This document shows, piece after piece, positions 9,094-50,707 of a stretch of DNA of 55,055 nt. How positions within the stretch are numbered: position 1 is the stretch's first letter; every line of letters begins with the position of its first letter. The position numbers were made by a program, and so were the translations under genes. The notes beneath the pieces were generated by a model, which worked only from the letters and a program-made list of their open reading frames with translations, was not told where the DNA came from and did not search any database. The stretch is from an uncultured Actinomycetes bacterium (GTDB lineage: Bacteria; Actinomycetota; Acidimicrobiia; Acidimicrobiales; Microtrichaceae): contig CAINRS010000004.1 of assembly GCA_903852755.1 (NCBI GenBank), positions 1 to 55,055 on the forward strand, written 5' to 3'.

Positions 9094-9875
9094 GGATCGG
9101 GGACCTCGGCGAACCGGCTCCCGGCCGGGTCGAGCCGCTCGAGCGCCACGACCTCGTCGCCGTCGGGACCGCGGCTCGTGGGGACGTCGGGCGGGACGAC
9201 GACCTCGCACCCCGTGGCCTCGACGACCTCGTCGACGGTGACGCCCGGGTGGACCGACCGGAGCGTCAGCACCGGGATCCCCTCGCCGTCCGACGACGAG
9301 AAGTCGAACACGCAGAGATTGGTGACCACCCGCCGGATCTCGTGGAACCGGGACGACGCCGGACCGAGCGCAGCCGCACGGTCGTACCCCACTCCGCACA
9401 CCACGTCGACGTGCTCGACCACGACCTTCGGCGAGTGGTTCGGCACCCAGTAGCTCGTCGTGTGGTTGATGGTGTTGCCGGGCGCCCCCCGGAACCCGAG
9501 CAGCTGCGACGTCGGCCGGTGCCAGTCGCCGATCGCTGCGATGTTCTGGTTGCCGTACCGGTCGACCTGGGTCGCGCCCATCATCACGTGCCGCCGACCG
9601 TGCCACAGGAGGGAGAACATCTCGCGGTACGGGTTCCACGAGCCGACGACCCGGTGCGCCAGACGCTGCTCCTCGTCGAGTCCGACCGGAGGCACGTCGT
9701 CGATCAGCGTGTAGAAGCCGTCGGTCAGCGCCAGGTGCGGCTCGAACGTCGCCGCCGCCAGACGGCCGCCGATCAGCGGCAGGTTGCCGATCGGGTTGCA
9801 CAGGCGTTCACCGTCGCCGCGGAAGGTCTCGGCGATGGCCACCGCACAGACGTCGGCGCGACGCGGCGCGCTCAC
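9090..9875 (-). CDS. ipdB: IpdB, beta subunit of the COCHEA-CoA hydrolase (CoA-transferase fold)
   Basis: A 261-residue CoA-transferase-family protein. IpdAB is a heteromeric hydrolase that opens the last ring of CoA-linked cholesterol fragments. Diagnostic stretches shared with mycobacterial IpdB (recalled) are ADVCAVAIAE, WHGRRHVMMGATQVDRYGNQN, GFRGAPGNTINHTTSYWVPNH and RSVHPGVTVDEV. The start is GTG 9875, preceded by GAGGTGG. Its upstream junction with ipdA has been altered by a 35-bp tandem duplication: instead of overlapping the ipdA stop directly, the GTG overlaps the TGA of a 12-codon mini-cistron. Confidence 0.94.
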   Translation of the reverse strand: MSAPRRADVCAVAIAETFRGDGERLCNPIGNLPLIGGRLAAATFEPHLALTDGFYTLIDDVPPVGLDEEQRLAHRVVGSWNPYREMFSLLWHGRRHVMMGATQVDRYGNQNIAAIGDWHRPTSQLLGFRGAPGNTINHTTSYWVPNHSPKVVVEHVDVVCGVGYDRAAALGPASSRFHEIRRVVTNLCVFDFSSSDGEGIPVLTLRSVHPGVTVDEVVEATGCEVVVPPDVPTSRGPDGDEVVALERLDPAGSRFAEVPDP

Positions 9876-9937
9876 CCGGCCACCTCGCCCAGCTCGGCGA
9901 CCGCGCTCACCCGGCCACCTCGCCCAGCTCGGCGACC
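9867..9937 (-). repeat. Perfect 35-bp tandem duplication across the ipdA/ipdB junction
   Basis: Bases 9867-9902 and 9902-9937 are identical over 36 positions, with a 35-bp period. Each copy holds the last codons of ipdA (reading AELGEVAG), its TGA stop, the GTGA junction and the ipdB ribosome site GAGGTGG. Because 35 is not a multiple of three, the second ipdA tail is read in a new frame. Confidence 0.95.
9872..9910 (-). CDS. 12-codon mini-cistron created between ipdA and ipdB
   Basis: The GTG at 9910 overlaps the ipdA stop (TGA 9907-9909). It reads VSAVAELGEVAG and stops at TGA 9872-9874, which in turn overlaps the ipdB GTG. Both junctions are GTGA. The peptide is the by-product of the 35-bp duplication and probably has no function of its own, but it may keep ribosomes coupled from ipdA to ipdB. 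Translation is not proven. Confidence 0.5.
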   Translation of the reverse strand: MSAVAELGEVAG

Positions 9938-22654: not shown

Positions 22655-24132
22655 GCGCCGTCGGCCGGTGGGCCACCTCCCCGCTGGCGCTGGTGCTGGT
22701 CGTGCTCGCCGTCTACGCCGTCGTGGTCGTCGACTCGACCGACAACGACCCGTCGCTCGCCCCGTTCACGGCGTCGAGTCTGGTGCGTGATGGCGACACC
22801 GACCTGCGCGACCTCCCACCCGAGGTCCTCGTGGACCGACCGATCGTGGTGGCCGGCTCCCCGGCCGGGAACGTCTTCACCTCGACTGCAGCGGTGCAGG
22901 CGGCACTCGACCGTGCCGGCCCGAACGCCGCCGTGCGGGACTACTTCCCCGTCGTCCCGGCGTTGCTCGCCGTTCCCACCGTCGTCCTCGCCGACACGTT
23001 CGGGCCGATCCTCGGACAGGGGGATGCGCGGCAGCTGCTGCTCGAGGATCGGTTCGGACTCCTCCACACGCTCACGGCGTCCATCGTGGTCGCGCTCGCG
23101 GTGCTCGTCGCCCGGTCGATCACCCTCCGGCTCGTCAGCGGCCCCGATGCGCGGCGCCGGTGGATCGCCACGATCACCGCCCTGGTGCTGGCGTTCGGCA
23201 CGACGGCGTGGTCGGTGGCGAGCCGGGCGCTGTGGCAGCACGGCCCCTCCCTGCTCCTGCTGTTGGTCGCGCTCTGGCTGATCCTGATGCTCCGGGACGA
23301 CACCACCACCCCGGCGGCGACCCGCCGGGGGGTCCGGGTGGCCGCTGCGCTCGGCGCGGTCCTCGCCGCCGCTGTGGTGACACGCCCCACCAACGCCGTC
23401 CCGACGCTCGCGCTGGTGGCGTGGGTGGCGTGGTGTCGCAGGGACCGACTCGCACCCGTGCTGCTCGGCGGGCTCGCGGTCACGGTCCTCGCCGGGGTGG
23501 TCGCCGCTGCACTGGGACTCGGTGTGCCACCGCCCTACTACTCGGCGTCGAGGATCACCCTGGGAGCCGACACGTTGGGCGCCATCGCCGCCAACCTGGT
23601 CTCGCCATCGCGCGGCCTGCTCGTGAGCACACCGATCGCACTGCTCGCCCTGCCCGGGGCGTGGCTCTGGTGGCGGCGACCGGAGGACCGGCCACTCGTC
23701 GTCGCCCTCACGGTCTGGGTGGTGGGAACCGTGCTCGCGGTGTCGGCCTTCACCCAGTGGTGGGCCGGCCACACCTTCGCAGCCCGGTTCACGACCGAGA
23801 CCCTCCCGGCGTTGCTCCTGCTCGCCGTGCCCGCCGTCGACGCCGTGGCCCCGGGGCGGACCGACGCCGTGGCCCCGGTCGGCCCCGCCGAGGTCCCGGG
23901 GTGGATGCGATCCCGGGTGGCACTGGGGGTGGTGGCCGTGCTCGCCGTCTGGTCGGTCGGGTTCCACGCCACCGGCGCGTGGTCCCGGCAGACGTCCTGC
24001 TGGAACGAGGGCCCGGTCGACGTCGACGACGACCCGGGCCGCGTGTGGTCGGTCACGGACAGCCAGGTCGGTCGGGCGGCCGGCGCCCTGGTCACCCACG
24101 GACCCCGCCGGGCGGTGGCCGGACCGTGCTGA
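22651..24132 (+). CDS. Multi-pass membrane protein, probable GT-C glycosyltransferase
   Basis: A 493-residue integral membrane protein with 10 to 12 helices. Helix 1 (LALVLVVLAVYAVVVV) is followed by an acidic outer loop, VDSTDNDPSLAPFTASSLVRDGDTDL, in the place of a GT-C catalytic loop. Later parts include FGTTAWSVASRALWQHGPSLL, VVTRPTNAVPTLALVAWVAW and a C-terminal outside tail with two cysteines. This pattern is common in actinobacterial membrane glycosyltransferase-like proteins, but I see no family-defining motif. The start GTG 22651 overlaps the previous stop as GTGA, so it is coupled to the GT operon. Confidence 0.78.
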   Translation: MSAVGRWATSPLALVLVVLAVYAVVVVDSTDNDPSLAPFTASSLVRDGDTDLRDLPPEVLVDRPIVVAGSPAGNVFTSTAAVQAALDRAGPNAAVRDYFPVVPALLAVPTVVLADTFGPILGQGDARQLLLEDRFGLLHTLTASIVVALAVLVARSITLRLVSGPDARRRWIATITALVLAFGTTAWSVASRALWQHGPSLLLLLVALWLILMLRDDTTTPAATRRGVRVAAALGAVLAAAVVTRPTNAVPTLALVAWVAWCRRDRLAPVLLGGLAVTVLAGVVAAALGLGVPPPYYSASRITLGADTLGAIAANLVSPSRGLLVSTPIALLALPGAWLWWRRPEDRPLVVALTVWVVGTVLAVSAFTQWWAGHTFAARFTTETLPALLLLAVPAVDAVAPGRTDAVAPVGPAEVPGWMRSRVALGVVAVLAVWSVGFHATGAWSRQTSCWNEGPVDVDDDPGRVWSVTDSQVGRAAGALVTHGPRRAVAGPC

Positions 24133-25379
24133 GCACCGAACAGCCGCTCGGTCCGACCACCTGGACCGACCGCCGGATCCTCGTCCCGGCGCTGGTGGGC
24201 TGGGTGTGGGCACGCATCTGCGTCGGGGTCGGGTTCGTCGTGGCCAACCGGCTCACCCCCGACCCCGCCCTGTCCGCTCGCGAGGACTTCCCCCTGCCCA
24301 GCGGTCTGCTGTCGTGGGACGGGTTCTTCTACGAGCGGATCGCCGTGGCCGGCTACGGCGGCACCCCGGCCGACGGCGTCCGGTTCTTCCCCGGCTACCC
24401 GTTCCTCGCCCGGCTGCTCAGTCCGGTGTTCGGTGGGCACGCCGACGTGGCGCTGGTCGTACTGGCCAACGTCGCGGCGCTCGTCGGCGCGGTCGTCCTG
24501 GCGCGCCTCGCACTCGAGGTGCTCGGGAGACGCGATCCCGGGGTCGGGGGCGCAGCACGTTCCGAGGACCGCACGACCGGAGCGTCGACCGACACCCCTA
24601 CGACCCACACCCCCACGACCGACACCCCCACGACCGGGGCCGACATCGACACCGACGCGGCCGGGGCCGAGCAGGTGGCCGGGCGCGCGGCCTGGATCGT
24701 CGCCGTCGTGCCCGCTGCGATCGTGTTCGTCTGGGCCTACTCGGAGGGACTGGCGCTGGTCCTGACCGCAGCGACGCTGCTCGCCCTGCACCGCCGGGCG
24801 TTCGCCTGGGCGGGTGCGTTCGCCGCCGCAGCGTGCCTGATCCGGCCGACCGGACTGCTGCTGCTCGCACCGATCGTGATCGAGGTCGTCCGGCGTCGAC
24901 CCCGGCCGCTCCCCGCCGTCGCCGCCGTCACGGGCCCGCTCCTCGGACTGTTCGCCGCGCTCGCCGTGATCGAACGGACCACGGGGTCGTGGACCTCGGC
25001 CTTCGACGCCCAGCAGCCGATCCGCGGGGAGTTCCGCTTCCCGCTGATCCGGGCGGCCGAGGCGCTCTGGGGTCTGCGCTTCAACACCGACACCGAGCTC
25101 GTGCCGTACGTGGTGCTGTGGTTCGTCCTGCTGGGCGTGTCCGTCTGGAGGCGTCAGCCGATCAGCTGGATCGTGTTCAGCGCGCTGACGCTGCTCGTGG
25201 CGTGCTCGTCGCAGACCATCGACTCGATCGGCCGCTACGGGCTGCTCGCGGTGCCGCTGGTCGTGGCGCTCGCCCAGTGGGCGGACCGCAACTGGCGCAC
25301 GGCGCTGGTGGGTGCGGCCGGGTCGGTCGGACTCGTGCTCACCACGGTCCAGGCGCTCCAGGGCCGCATCGTCCCCTGA
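24126..25379 (+). CDS. PIG-V-like membrane mannosyltransferase
   Basis: A 417-residue membrane protein resembling PIG-V/Mannosyl_trans2 enzymes. The characteristic loop is LSWDGFFYERIAVAGYGG followed by GVRFFPGYPFLARLLSPVF (a WD-x-x-F-Y plus F-F-P-x-Y-P arrangement). Later come AYSEGLALVLTAATLLALHRR and ACLIRPTGLLLLAP. Between helices 2 and 3 there is a low-complexity insert of about 45 residues with a Thr-Pro-Thr-Thr repeat. The start GTG 24126 overlaps the preceding stop by 7 nt. It is the last gene of the GT operon, which then runs into the repeat/hairpin region. Confidence 0.85.
   Translation: MLSTEQPLGPTTWTDRRILVPALVGWVWARICVGVGFVVANRLTPDPALSAREDFPLPSGLLSWDGFFYERIAVAGYGGTPADGVRFFPGYPFLARLLSPVFGGHADVALVVLANVAALVGAVVLARLALEVLGRRDPGVGGAARSEDRTTGASTDTPTTHTPTTDTPTTGADIDTDAAGAEQVAGRAAWIVAVVPAAIVFVWAYSEGLALVLTAATLLALHRRAFAWAGAFAAAACLIRPTGLLLLAPIVIEVVRRRPRPLPAVAAVTGPLLGLFAALAVIERTTGSWTSAFDAQQPIRGEFRFPLIRAAEALWGLRFNTDTELVPYVVLWFVLLGVSVWRRQPISWIVFSALTLLVACSSQTIDSIGRYGLLAVPLVVALAQWADRNWRTALVGAAGSVGLVLTTVQALQGRIVP
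24591..24635 (+). repeat. Three 15-bp tandem repeats inside the PIG-V-like gene
   Basis: Units at 24591, 24606 and 24621 encode DTPTT, HTPTT and DTPTT in an inter-helix loop. In-frame repeat number could vary without breaking the gene. Confidence 0.75.
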
Positions 25380-25393
25380 ACCCCCCCTCATCT

Positions 25394-25436
25394 CGCCCAC
25401 CCCCCACCTCGCCCACCGCCCACCGCCCACCGCCCA
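25394..25436 (+). repeat. CGCCCAC heptamer repeats downstream of the glycosyltransferase operon
   Basis: Four CGCCCAC-type units run at 25410-25436, with looser copies from 25394. They begin 15 bp after the stop at 25379 and precede the large inverted repeat. Confidence 0.7.
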
Positions 25437-25444
25437 GGACCCCC

Positions 25445-25573
25445 ACCGAAATCACCGAAATCACCGAAATCACCGAACTTGTACGCCCTGTTGCGCTCAG
25501 CGCAACGGGCGGTTCAAGTTCGCGGGGTTCGGGGGGGTTCGCGGGGTTCGCGGGGTTCGCCGGGTTCGGGGCG
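25445..25573. repeat. Large imperfect hairpin flanked by complementary 9-nt repeats
   Basis: Core stem: CGAACTTG (25474-25481) pairs with CAAGTTCG (25515-25522). Inside it, CGCCC-T-GTTGCGC (25484-25496) pairs with GCGCAACGGGCG (25500-25511) around a TCA loop. The left flank is ACCGAAATC repeated three times plus ACCGAACTT (25445-25480). The right flank is six TTCGNGGGG-like units (25519-25573). The flanks pair partly, because CCGAA meets TTCGG/TTCG with G-T wobbles. It lies between convergent operons and ends 7 bp from the ABC1 stop. It could be a two-way terminator or a palindromic repeat element. Confidence 0.85.
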
Positions 25574-25579
25574 ACGGGC

Positions 25580-27076
25580 TCAGGGGGTTCGGCCGGCCGT
25601 GGTCGGGGCGTCGAGGGCGGCGCGGAAGAACTCCTCGTCCTCGAACAGCCCGACGTCACGCAGGAAGATCCGGCCGTAGCGCTCGAAGTAGACGAGCTGC
25701 TTGGACAGCAGGAAGATGCTGCGTTCGAAGTCCGAGTCGTACACGCCGTGCGCCGCGGCAGCGGCGCGGATCCGGCGCTGGTCCCGGAAGCGTCGGTACA
25801 CCGCCCGCGCCGACAACTGCTCGGCCTCGGCACCGCGGATCTCGGCGACCTTCGCCTGCGGCGCCGTCAGCAGGTCGGCCAGGCTGACCTGACCGAACGG
25901 CTGGGTGAGCACGGGCTCGATCGCCATCCGCATGAACGCCTCGACCTGGGCGTGGTCCATCCCGAGGTCCTGTTCGAGCACCGGCCCGTACATCCGCTGG
26001 GCGTGCCGGGCGATGTCGGGCCAGGCACCGTCGTCGCCGAGCGCCGCCTCGATGAGCAGCCGGAAGAACTGGTGGGTCTCCGGGTCGAGCCGACCCACGA
26101 TCCCCCAGTCGATGACCCCGACCCGACCGTCGGGCAGGAGCAGGAGGTTCCCGGCGTGCACGTCGCCGTGGAACGTCCCCCATCGGATCGCCGTCAGGAG
26201 GAACCCCTTGATGACCTCCTGGACGACCGGCGCCGGGTCGTAGCCGTAGCGCGAGACGGTGGTCAGGTCGTCCACGGGCACACCGTCGAAGAACTCCATG
26301 GTCAGCACCCGGCGACCCGACAGTTCGGTGAACACCTCAGGGATCGTGATCCGCTGCAGATTCACCTGCTGGAGCAGCCAGCGGTAGTGGGTCATGGCCC
26401 TGGCCTCGTTGCGCAGGTCGAGCTCCTCACCGATCTGCACACGGAACCCCTGGAACATCGCGAGCAGCTGGCCCGCGACGTACTCGCCGGTCTGCTTGGC
26501 GATCAGCTCCAGCAGGGGCTGGAACAGGTCGAGGTCGACCGCCACCTGCTCCTCGATGCGCGGCCGGAGCACCTTGACCGCCACCCGGCGGCCGTCCCTC
26601 GTGGTCGCCTTGTGCACCACCGAGATCGACGCCCGGCCGATGGGTGTCTCGGAGAAGCTCCAGAACGCCTCGTCGAGCGGCATCCCCAGGTCGCGCTCGA
26701 CGATCCGTCGGACCTCGTCGAACGGGACCGGGGCACCGGTGTCGAGGCACGACCGGAACTCGTCGGCGACGGCGTCGCCGAACATCCCCGGTGACGAGCC
26801 GATGAGCTGGCCGAACTTCATGAAGGTGGCGCCGAGCTCCTCGAAGGTCCGCCGGAGCGGCCGCGCCCACGCATCCGGGGCGATCCGTCGGTGCACGGCA
26901 CTCCGGGCGACCAACGGGGCGAAGTGCCGGGAGCTCACCAACCCGATCCGGCGCGCCCTGCGGACCAGCTCCGAACGTGGGGACCGGGGGAGCTCCAGGG
27001 GGAACACCCGCGGGACGGTCTGCAACCGGGCCTCGAGCTCCTCGTCGGTCACGTCGATCTCGCTCACCGCCCCCAT
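25580..27076 (-). CDS. ABC1/UbiB/AarF family atypical kinase
   Basis: A 498-residue ABC1-family protein. Its N-terminal helical region contains FEELGATFMKFGQLIGSSPGMFG, the family KxGQ-type signature in place of a normal glycine-rich loop. Kinase core motifs follow: ISVVHKATTRDGRRVAVKVLRP (Lys of the VAIK-like motif), GEELDLRNEARAM, LTMEFFDGVPVDDL, GTFHGDVHAGNLLLLPDG (catalytic loop) and VGVIDWGIVG (metal-binding Asp). UbiB proteins support quinone or other lipid metabolism. ATG 27076 is chosen; GTG 27067 is an alternative. There is no C-terminal membrane pair typical of UbiB, so AarF-like is the safer name. Confidence 0.9.
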   Translation of the reverse strand: MGAVSEIDVTDEELEARLQTVPRVFPLELPRSPRSELVRRARRIGLVSSRHFAPLVARSAVHRRIAPDAWARPLRRTFEELGATFMKFGQLIGSSPGMFGDAVADEFRSCLDTGAPVPFDEVRRIVERDLGMPLDEAFWSFSETPIGRASISVVHKATTRDGRRVAVKVLRPRIEEQVAVDLDLFQPLLELIAKQTGEYVAGQLLAMFQGFRVQIGEELDLRNEARAMTHYRWLLQQVNLQRITIPEVFTELSGRRVLTMEFFDGVPVDDLTTVSRYGYDPAPVVQEVIKGFLLTAIRWGTFHGDVHAGNLLLLPDGRVGVIDWGIVGRLDPETHQFFRLLIEAALGDDGAWPDIARHAQRMYGPVLEQDLGMDHAQVEAFMRMAIEPVLTQPFGQVSLADLLTAPQAKVAEIRGAEAEQLSARAVYRRFRDQRRIRAAAAAHGVYDSDFERSIFLLSKQLVYFERYGRIFLRDVGLFEDEEFFRAALDAPTTAGRTP

Positions 27077-49258: not shown

Positions 49259-50707
49259 GTGACCGACCGCACCCCGCCCACACAGCGCACGTCATCGGCG
49301 CGACGCGCCCGCCGGGCCGTCGCCGCCGTCCTCACGACGGCGCTCGTCCCGGCACTGTGGACGGGCACCGTCGCCGCCCAGGACGAGCCGTCCTCCACCA
49401 CCGTCCCGGAGTCGGACACGACGACGACCACGACGCCGTCGTCCACCACCTCCACCACGACCACGACCACGACCACGACGCCCGGGACCTCCACCTCGCT
49501 GCCCGGTCCGCTGCAGCCACCACTCCCCGAGTCGACGACGACGCTCGTCCCGACCACGGCCCCGCTCCCGCCCACGGTCGACGAGCCACCGGGCAGCTCG
49601 AGGAGCTGGTCGATCGCCCCGCGCTTCACGGTGCCGAGCGACGACTCCGTGGCGAGCGCTCAGGCCCTCCTGGCCCAGGTCGTGGCGACCATCGAGGAGG
49701 TGCAGGCCCGACGCACCACCCTGGAGCAACGCATCGCGACCGCTGAGACCGAGGTCAGCGCCACACGCCAACGACTCTCCGACCTCGAGCGCAAGCGCAA
49801 GGCCCGGGCCGTCGGTGCCTTCATCAGCGGCGACGCCATCGTCGAGTCCAAGATCCAGGTGGACGACGAGCGCGTGCGGATCATCTCCTCGATCGAGGGC
49901 ATCGAGACCATCGACGGCGAGCGACGCCGGGCGCTCGAGCTGCAGATCGGCCGGCTCGACCAGCGCATCCGCGACGACCGCTCGGCGCTGTCGGCGACCG
50001 AGCCCGAGCTCGCCGAGCTCACCGCCGCCCGGCAGATGCTCCAGGACAAGATCGCGAGCGCGCTCGACACGACCGTCGACGTGCCCGTGGGCCCGACCGA
50101 CATCGCGGTGACCGCCGCTGCAGCGCTCGGACGACGTCGTTCGGCGAGCGCCCTGACCGCTGCCGGCGACCTGGCGGGTGCAGCTGCGGCGACGGAGGCC
50201 GAGCGACGGGAACTCGAGCGGCTCGCTGCACTGGTGGCCCGGCCGACGCCGGGGGCCTACAACCCCGACGGCACGCCGAAGAGCATCGGCCCGACCCCGG
50301 TGACCGACGCGACGACCCTGGCCGCGAGGTTGCTGGCCGAGTGGTCGCTGCTCGACGACCGCCGGATGACGGTGATGCTGTTCGCGCTCCAGCAGGTGGG
50401 AAAGCGGTACGTCTGGGGCGGAGCCGGGCCCGATGTGTACGACTGCTCGGGTCTGGTCATGCGGGCCTGGGCCCTCGCCGGCGTGCGACTCGAGCACGGC
50501 TCGGCCAGTCAGGTCGCGTCCGGGCCCCCGGTCGCCGTCGGCGAGATGATCCCCGGTGACCTGCTCGGCTACGGACCCGGGAGCAACCAGCACGTCACCA
50601 TGTACATCGGTGCCGACCGGGTGGTCGAGGCCAAGGGTTCCGCCTACGGCGTGATCGTGAACAACGCCCGCTACGCCGAGATGGACGGCGCAGCGCGGAT
50701 GCCCTGA
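49259..50707 (+). CDS. Secreted NlpC/P60 peptidoglycan endopeptidase (RipA-like)
   Basis: A 482-residue exported protein. The signal peptide is RRARRAVAAVLTTALVPALW with an AxA-type cleavage near TVAAQDE. A Thr/Pro-rich linker of ~80 residues (runs of Thr) follows, then a long coiled coil (~130-290: ALLAQVVATIEEVQARRTTLE, ETEVSATRQRLSDLERKRK). The C-terminal NlpC/P60 domain has the catalytic Cys in VYDCSGLVMRAW and the His in NQHVTMYIGADRVVE. The coiled coil probably restrains the enzyme, as in RipA-type proteins. The Thr-rich linker is common in Acidimicrobiia. A sulfatase gene begins 6 bp after its stop. Confidence 0.92.
   Translation: MTDRTPPTQRTSSARRARRAVAAVLTTALVPALWTGTVAAQDEPSSTTVPESDTTTTTTPSSTTSTTTTTTTTTPGTSTSLPGPLQPPLPESTTTLVPTTAPLPPTVDEPPGSSRSWSIAPRFTVPSDDSVASAQALLAQVVATIEEVQARRTTLEQRIATAETEVSATRQRLSDLERKRKARAVGAFISGDAIVESKIQVDDERVRIISSIEGIETIDGERRRALELQIGRLDQRIRDDRSALSATEPELAELTAARQMLQDKIASALDTTVDVPVGPTDIAVTAAAALGRRRSASALTAAGDLAGAAAATEAERRELERLAALVARPTPGAYNPDGTPKSIGPTPVTDATTLAARLLAEWSLLDDRRMTVMLFALQQVGKRYVWGGAGPDVYDCSGLVMRAWALAGVRLEHGSASQVASGPPVAVGEMIPGDLLGYGPGSNQHVTMYIGADRVVEAKGSAYGVIVNNARYAEMDGAARMP

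Follow-up and report, generated by a model that had tools for sequence, protein, structure and literature searches.

Nuclease genes lying between matching palindromes suggest a little-known kind of mobile repeat in Actinomycetota

Introduction

Between two convergent genes of an uncultured member of the Microtrichaceae lies a large hairpin bordered by short tandem repeats, raising the question of what kind of element it is and how it came to lie there. An initial annotation of the window, by which we mean the whole 55,055-nt stretch of DNA that was analyzed, offered a bidirectional terminator, a mobile palindromic repeat resembling REPs, or a structured RNA. REPs are described in the accessible part of PMC3733652 as short, dispersed extragenic palindromes, single or arrayed and often situated between convergent genes, with the gene for their enzyme flanked by copies. 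Dispersed copies of the palindrome, orthologous gaps that are either occupied or bare, and a nuclease gene situated between two copies make the mobile repeat the best supported of the three. At a probability of roughly 0.6, we read the hairpin as the recognition site and a non-autonomous copy of an AbiEi-EDxHD nuclease element whose cognate enzyme is encoded on contig C55 of the same genome. The finding that many similar nuclease genes of related bacteria also lie between their own palindromes suggests a little-known kind of mobile repeat.

Results

The core of the hairpin is a 49-nt palindrome at 25474..25522 (no strand assigned, as for all non-coding features here), in which 20 Watson-Crick pairs and one G-U pair form among 24 possible pairs. 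The surrounding segment 25420-25590 folds at -88.8 kcal/mol (z -3.70), a value that none of 200 dinucleotide shuffles equaled, so the strong stem in the initial annotation is borne out. To the left, at 25444..25473, stands an array of 9-nt units with CGAA (ACCGAAATC), detected as CACCGAAAT repeated 3.8 times at 25444-25477, and to the right, at 25523..25573, an array of 9-10-nt units with TTCG, detected as GTTCGCGGG repeated 5.6 times at 25518-25568. Both arrays therefore exist as annotated, but their proposed partial pairing does not exceed chance, as 13 of 30 positions agree when the arrays are aligned by the core, against a shuffle mean of 9.8, and 12% of shuffles do as well. The data accordingly do not support growth of the arms as repeats under preserved complementarity. 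The low-complexity flanks differ in other copies of the palindrome. Tandem repeats also occur in or near genes elsewhere in the window, at 9867-9937 (35 nt x2, 100%), 24586-24636 (15 nt x3.4, 91%) and 49417-49495 (39 nt x2, 80%).

The hairpin sits in a 200-bp gap between genes that serve here as context. The left gene (24126..25379, plus strand) has a start chosen by a simple gene finder, with 24045 called in another run, and is followed by a C-rich stretch at 25380..25443. The right gene (25580..27076, minus strand) encodes an ABC1 kinase-like protein (Pfam match 2e-56). The convergent arrangement and the ABC1 identity agree with the initial annotation, while its glycosyltransferase appears as a mannosyltransferase-like protein only below the Pfam cut-off (19.0 bits, cut-off 22.4). 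The structured-RNA option gains no backing, as the locus has no Rfam match at E<=1 and the palindrome looks alike on both strands. No hairpin followed by a T-run was detected in 24500-26500, which removes an intrinsic T-tract terminator.

Palindromes of the same length and with the same ends were found elsewhere by a BLAST search with the intergenic gap as query and by reading the fetched stretches; the copies read end in CGAACTTG/CAAGTTCG. A covariance model built from 13 copies identified 14 places in the own genome at E<=0.01, seven of which are training copies. Two weaker matches, C139:67764 (E 0.036, 6 of 24 Watson-Crick pairs) and one on C96 (E 5.1), were excluded from the copy count, although the former is included in the tallies of gene orientation and flank composition given below. 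Under stricter filters, the model matched six of 61 genomes, comprising four of the six genomes of the genus (G000, G003, G004 and G005) and two of a second genus (G009 and G022), and detected no copy in the congeners G001 and G002. Tens of match rows were returned for both G005 and G009, where copies also form tandem arrays. The length of the palindrome is conserved: among the matches listed, which derive from G000, G003, G004, G005, G009 (15 of 20) and G011, CTTGTAC...GTACAAG spans exactly 41 nt in 34 of 36, with 31-61 nt allowed. Pairing is conserved as well, since it covaries between copies with a score that only 1 of 500 shuffles reached and that lies above all slid registers. Two other pairing measures were equally rare (1/500), whereas the count of pairs changed on both sides (9 of 23) was matched by 77 of 500 shuffles. 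The expectation of further copies and of conserved pairing in relatives was thus confirmed.

At the orthologous ABC1/mannosyltransferase-like site, the gap is occupied by the palindrome in G000 (200 bp), G004 (198 bp) and G005 (139 bp) and is bare in G002 (14 bp), G003 (21 bp) and G001 (12 bp). The trees of ABC1 and of its neighbor gene disagree, and the bare gaps may be either ancestral or the result of losses. Several other palindrome sites are common to G000, G004 and G005, indicating that part of the family is old. In G011, from another genus, the gap holds two variant hairpins of the GACCTTG type, and strong palindromes that differ in sequence stand beside genes at the ABC1 loci of G010 and G014 (L116, gap after 1356, score 28; L117, score 17).

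On contig C55 of the own genome, a 321-aa gene is enclosed by two copies of the palindrome, with 56 bp separating it from the upstream copy and 50 bp from the downstream one. Its product matches Pfam AbiEi_4 and DUF559, and the gene is classed as encoding an AbiEi-winged-helix protein fused to a DUF559 (Vsr/EDxHD-like) nuclease. The outer neighbors of the locus are the genes for chorismate synthase and UvrB (uvrB), and between the same two neighbors G009 carries a palindrome array and no nuclease gene. Relatives are likewise enclosed by palindrome copies in G005 (C36) and, in a different location, in G009 (near 1592090), and in G004 (C74) a relative adjoins a copy at the end of a contig. G003 has two palindrome copies and two DUF559 genes, neither among the close C55-nuclease relatives as picked by eye. 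The two congeners lacking this hairpin, G001 and G002 (the latter 66% complete), yielded no DUF559 match. A Y1 transposase (PF01797) was detected in none of the six hairpin genomes and in five of 61 overall, most of these being draft genomes. The REP-like proposal thus stands as a mobile palindromic repeat but not as a RAYT-REP system.

The domain assignments are supported by an AlphaFold2 model of the L147 protein (mean pLDDT 81.5, pTM 0.58, six sequences). Residues 8-201 of the model resemble AbiEi (6y8q, Z 12.3), in agreement with the Pfam AbiEi_4 match and the PADLOC AbiEi models, which were scanned in one long protein and in three relatives, respectively. The modeled C-terminal domain resembles 3hrl (Z 13.2), I-Bth0305I (3r3p, Z 13.1) and Vsr (1cw0, Z 9.9), and a sequence profile of the protein ranks 3hrl at 3e-5, 3r3p at 0.048 and AbiEi at 0.085. 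Five residues, E217, D249, E260, H267 and D276, are retained in 39, 40, 40, 38 and 40 of 40 long proteins and probably correspond, residue by residue, to the EDxHD motif. The size of the palindrome is itself suggestive. The AbiEi operator, as reported in the accessible text of PMC3985639, is autoregulatory and consists of an 11-bp repeat with N27, extending to 23-N3-23, or 49 nt, the same length as the palindrome with its arms of about 23 nt; this suggestive shared geometry may be a coincidence, and the flank palindromes of other nucleases measure about 41 to 58 nt.

The association between nuclease and palindrome extends across the phylum. DUF559 matches, small DUF559 proteins included, occur in 57 of 149 phylum-sample genomes, with up to 10 per genome. 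From these many matches 30 loci were taken, 29 of them new, to join 23 loci from 12 genomes. Genes of >=260 aa, their starts chosen by a length rule, were classed as long, or fused; L162 and L167, being multi-domain or unclear, were left out before counting. Of the resulting 40 long genes, 37 had both flanks. These flanks shared a repeat (SW>=36) in 23 of 37 long DUF559 genes versus 2 of 95 control genes (Fisher p 5e-14), 2 of 10 other DUF559 genes and 7 of 740 mismatched flank pairs, with some loci mutually orthologous and the flank counts not fully independent. Masking of low complexity left matches at 18 of 37 long genes, at 0 of 88 control genes (here without the Y1 loci L095-L107) and in 7 of 1332 mismatched pairs, all seven of which join loci with related nucleases or from one genus. 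At SW>=30 after masking, matching flanks were present in 13 of 20 own-family genes and in 7 of 17 genes from outside that family. An earlier test, which scored palindromes singly (score >=13 in 34 of 77 long DUF559 flanks, 24 of 160 control flanks and 1 of 22 other DUF559 flanks), had a poor control that held hairpin-bearing ABC1 loci, Y1-transposase loci and further DUF559 loci, and was replaced by the flank-match test.

One of the two control matches is the Y1 transposase locus L099 (G030:C1:4552110), whose flanking repeats match at SW 147 and which probably represents a genuine RAYT/REP unit with the same layout.

The flank repeats are mostly palindromes and differ between nuclease lineages. 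The rank correlation between nuclease identity and flank similarity is weak (0.21 over 300 pairs) and is partly due to close pairs occupying a common genomic site. Including that of the window, four palindrome families are dispersed in genomes whose nuclease they flank. Arms of TGTGGTGCGAGCNNCATG (<=2 mismatches) number 17+15 in G004 and 15+19 in G005, flanking nucleases of both, and 4+13 in G002; each of nine other genomes has at most 6, the level of a reversed-pattern control. CTTCGGGTGATTAGTGTCGC (<=3 mismatches) occupies 17 places in G163, a genome from a different family within the class; two of these places flank the nuclease of G163, and none of 7 other genomes had a match at that threshold. 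Similarly, CTGGCTGTCGTTCTCCCGGCC (<=3 mismatches) occupies 20 places in G009, two of which border the nuclease gene there, with one place in G022 and none in 5 other genomes. In G002, nine of 17 TGTGGTGCGAGCNNCATG arms lie in the first 34 bases of their contig; by contig, arms of the TGTGGTGCGAGC palindrome have this position in C21, C46, C47, C123, C135, C170, C179, C227 and C250. The assembly therefore seems to break at hairpins, making copy numbers from draft genomes lower bounds.

Discussion

Taken with the AbiEi precedent, these observations lead us to infer that the AbiEi-DUF559 nuclease binds, cleaves and thereby copies the palindrome. Two protomers would bind the two 23-nt half-sites of the palindrome through the AbiEi-like domain, as AbiEi does on its 23-N3-23 operator, and the nuclease domain would cut or nick at or near the palindrome. 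The enzyme might act by a double-strand break followed by repair or by processing of a single-stranded hairpin. Repair would copy the palindrome to new, mostly intergenic sites, occasionally together with the gene that its two palindromes enclose. The element would then work in the manner of REP/RAYT, with a homing-endonuclease-type enzyme in place of the Y1 transposase. Several observations weigh against this reading. Matching flanks are absent from 14 of 37 long DUF559 genes, or 19 of 37 after masking; G003 has copies without a close relative of the C55 nuclease, and G002 has a second palindrome family without a DUF559 match. The palindromes of the nuclease gene itself are intact, and an active cutter would need to spare them. 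Finally, sites common to three species show that part of the family is old.

It seems unlikely that the palindrome is primarily a bidirectional terminator kept by selection, presenting each convergent transcript with a C-rich, G-poor stretch followed by a strong hairpin (Rho-type termination or 3'-end protection). Such a role would accord with the distribution of copies. Among 48 copies inspected in the genus, 15 have convergent neighbors, 12 tandem and 9 divergent ones, and 12 stand at contig edges; the convergent setting accounts for 15 of the 36 with both neighbors called versus 9 of 45 gene pairs in the window. It would also accord with flank composition: the left flank is C-rich in 39 and the right flank G-rich in 40 of 45 copies, versus 9 of 25 control gene 3' ends, a bias strongest on sides towards gene 3' ends. 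Yet there is no T-tract site, nine of the 36 copies lie between divergent genes, and termination leaves unexplained the copies on both sides of the nuclease gene, the fixed end sequence and the absence from two congeners. As a side role, however, copies set between convergent genes may terminate transcription in both directions, perhaps by a Rho-type mechanism, and to that extent the annotated terminator survives. The C-rich left and G-rich right flanks are present in G000, G003, G004 and G005 irrespective of gene orientation.

Two further accounts retain the nuclease gene and assign it another part. That the AbiEi-like protein acts as a repressor, with the palindromes as the operators of its regulon, is improbable; the autoregulation of AbiEi through a 49-nt inverted repeat (PMC3985639, in its accessible text) and the palindrome upstream of the nuclease gene in many loci speak for it, but matching palindromes also lie downstream, many dispersed copies stand between convergent genes with no promoter there to control, and 38-40 of 40 proteins retain the nuclease residues. 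We give similarly little credence to the possibility that the palindromes owe their spread to a different, unseen enzyme, with the nuclease genes doing no more than inserting into, or undergoing repair at, hairpins already present. The long genes without matching flanks, the palindromes of G002 and G003 without a detected cognate nuclease, and the nuclease-free array of G009 between chorismate synthase and UvrB would all fit, but flanking palindromes differ by nuclease lineage, and each of the four dispersed families tested is also the family that borders the nuclease gene of its genome.

We place at even odds the wider proposal that AbiEi-DUF559 proteins mobilize widespread palindromic repeats of Actinomycetota, an antitoxin-type DNA-binding domain having joined a homing-type nuclease and an operator having turned into a selfish dispersing element, REP-like but of RAYT-independent origin. 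In searches of the open-access literature, with subscription papers and preprints largely outside their scope, no paper surfaced that links DUF559/AbiEi nuclease genes with palindromic repeats. The nuclease-element reading gives a testable function to a common, unexplained actinobacterial gene family annotated as antitoxin-domain or endonuclease-domain proteins, and it ties the geometry of an antitoxin binding site to that of a mobile repeat. If true, it would provide a REP-like system with a dedicated non-Y1 enzyme and bear on the spread of palindromic repeats that lack a known transposase, such as the CGTC REPs so described in the accessible part of PMC3733652.

Compared with REP/RAYT systems, the palindrome is likewise short, extragenic and dispersed, single or arrayed, with an enzyme gene between copies. 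In contrast, it is 49 nt long and nearly symmetric, its ends (CGAACTTG/CAAGTTCG) lack a GTAG or CGTC tag, the flanked gene encodes an AbiEi-DUF559 nuclease, and no Y1 transposase was detected in the six hairpin genomes; its copy number of about 14 in the own genome is also lower than the more than 100 given as typical of REPs in the accessible text of PMC2817692. With I-Bth0305I and Vsr the nuclease shares a predicted fold (Z 13.1 and 9.9) and conserved acidic and His residues, and with I-Bth0305I, which is said to dimerize on a target of nearly 60 bp (PMC3943268, accessible part), a very long putative target for a dimer. Here, however, there is no intron, the gene lies between intact palindromes, the DNA-binding part is AbiEi-like and each genome has many sites.

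The likeness to AbiE type IV toxin-antitoxin systems resides in the AbiEi-like N-terminal part and the 49-nt inverted repeat as putative site. The differences are the fusion of that part to a nuclease and the placement of palindromes on both sides of the gene as well as dispersed. A Pfam scan of 7 neighbors of 5 sites found no AbiEii toxin gene. The fused nuclease was not found in phages, and plasmid matches to it cover the AbiEi half only. Two such plasmid loci, L236 from Rhodococcus and L237 from Streptomyces, carry this half beside AbiEii toxin genes, unlike the fused chromosomal genes. In two plasmid abiE loci the inverted repeat upstream is borderline, with 15 of 24 pairs against a shuffled mean of 12.1 and maximum of 15.
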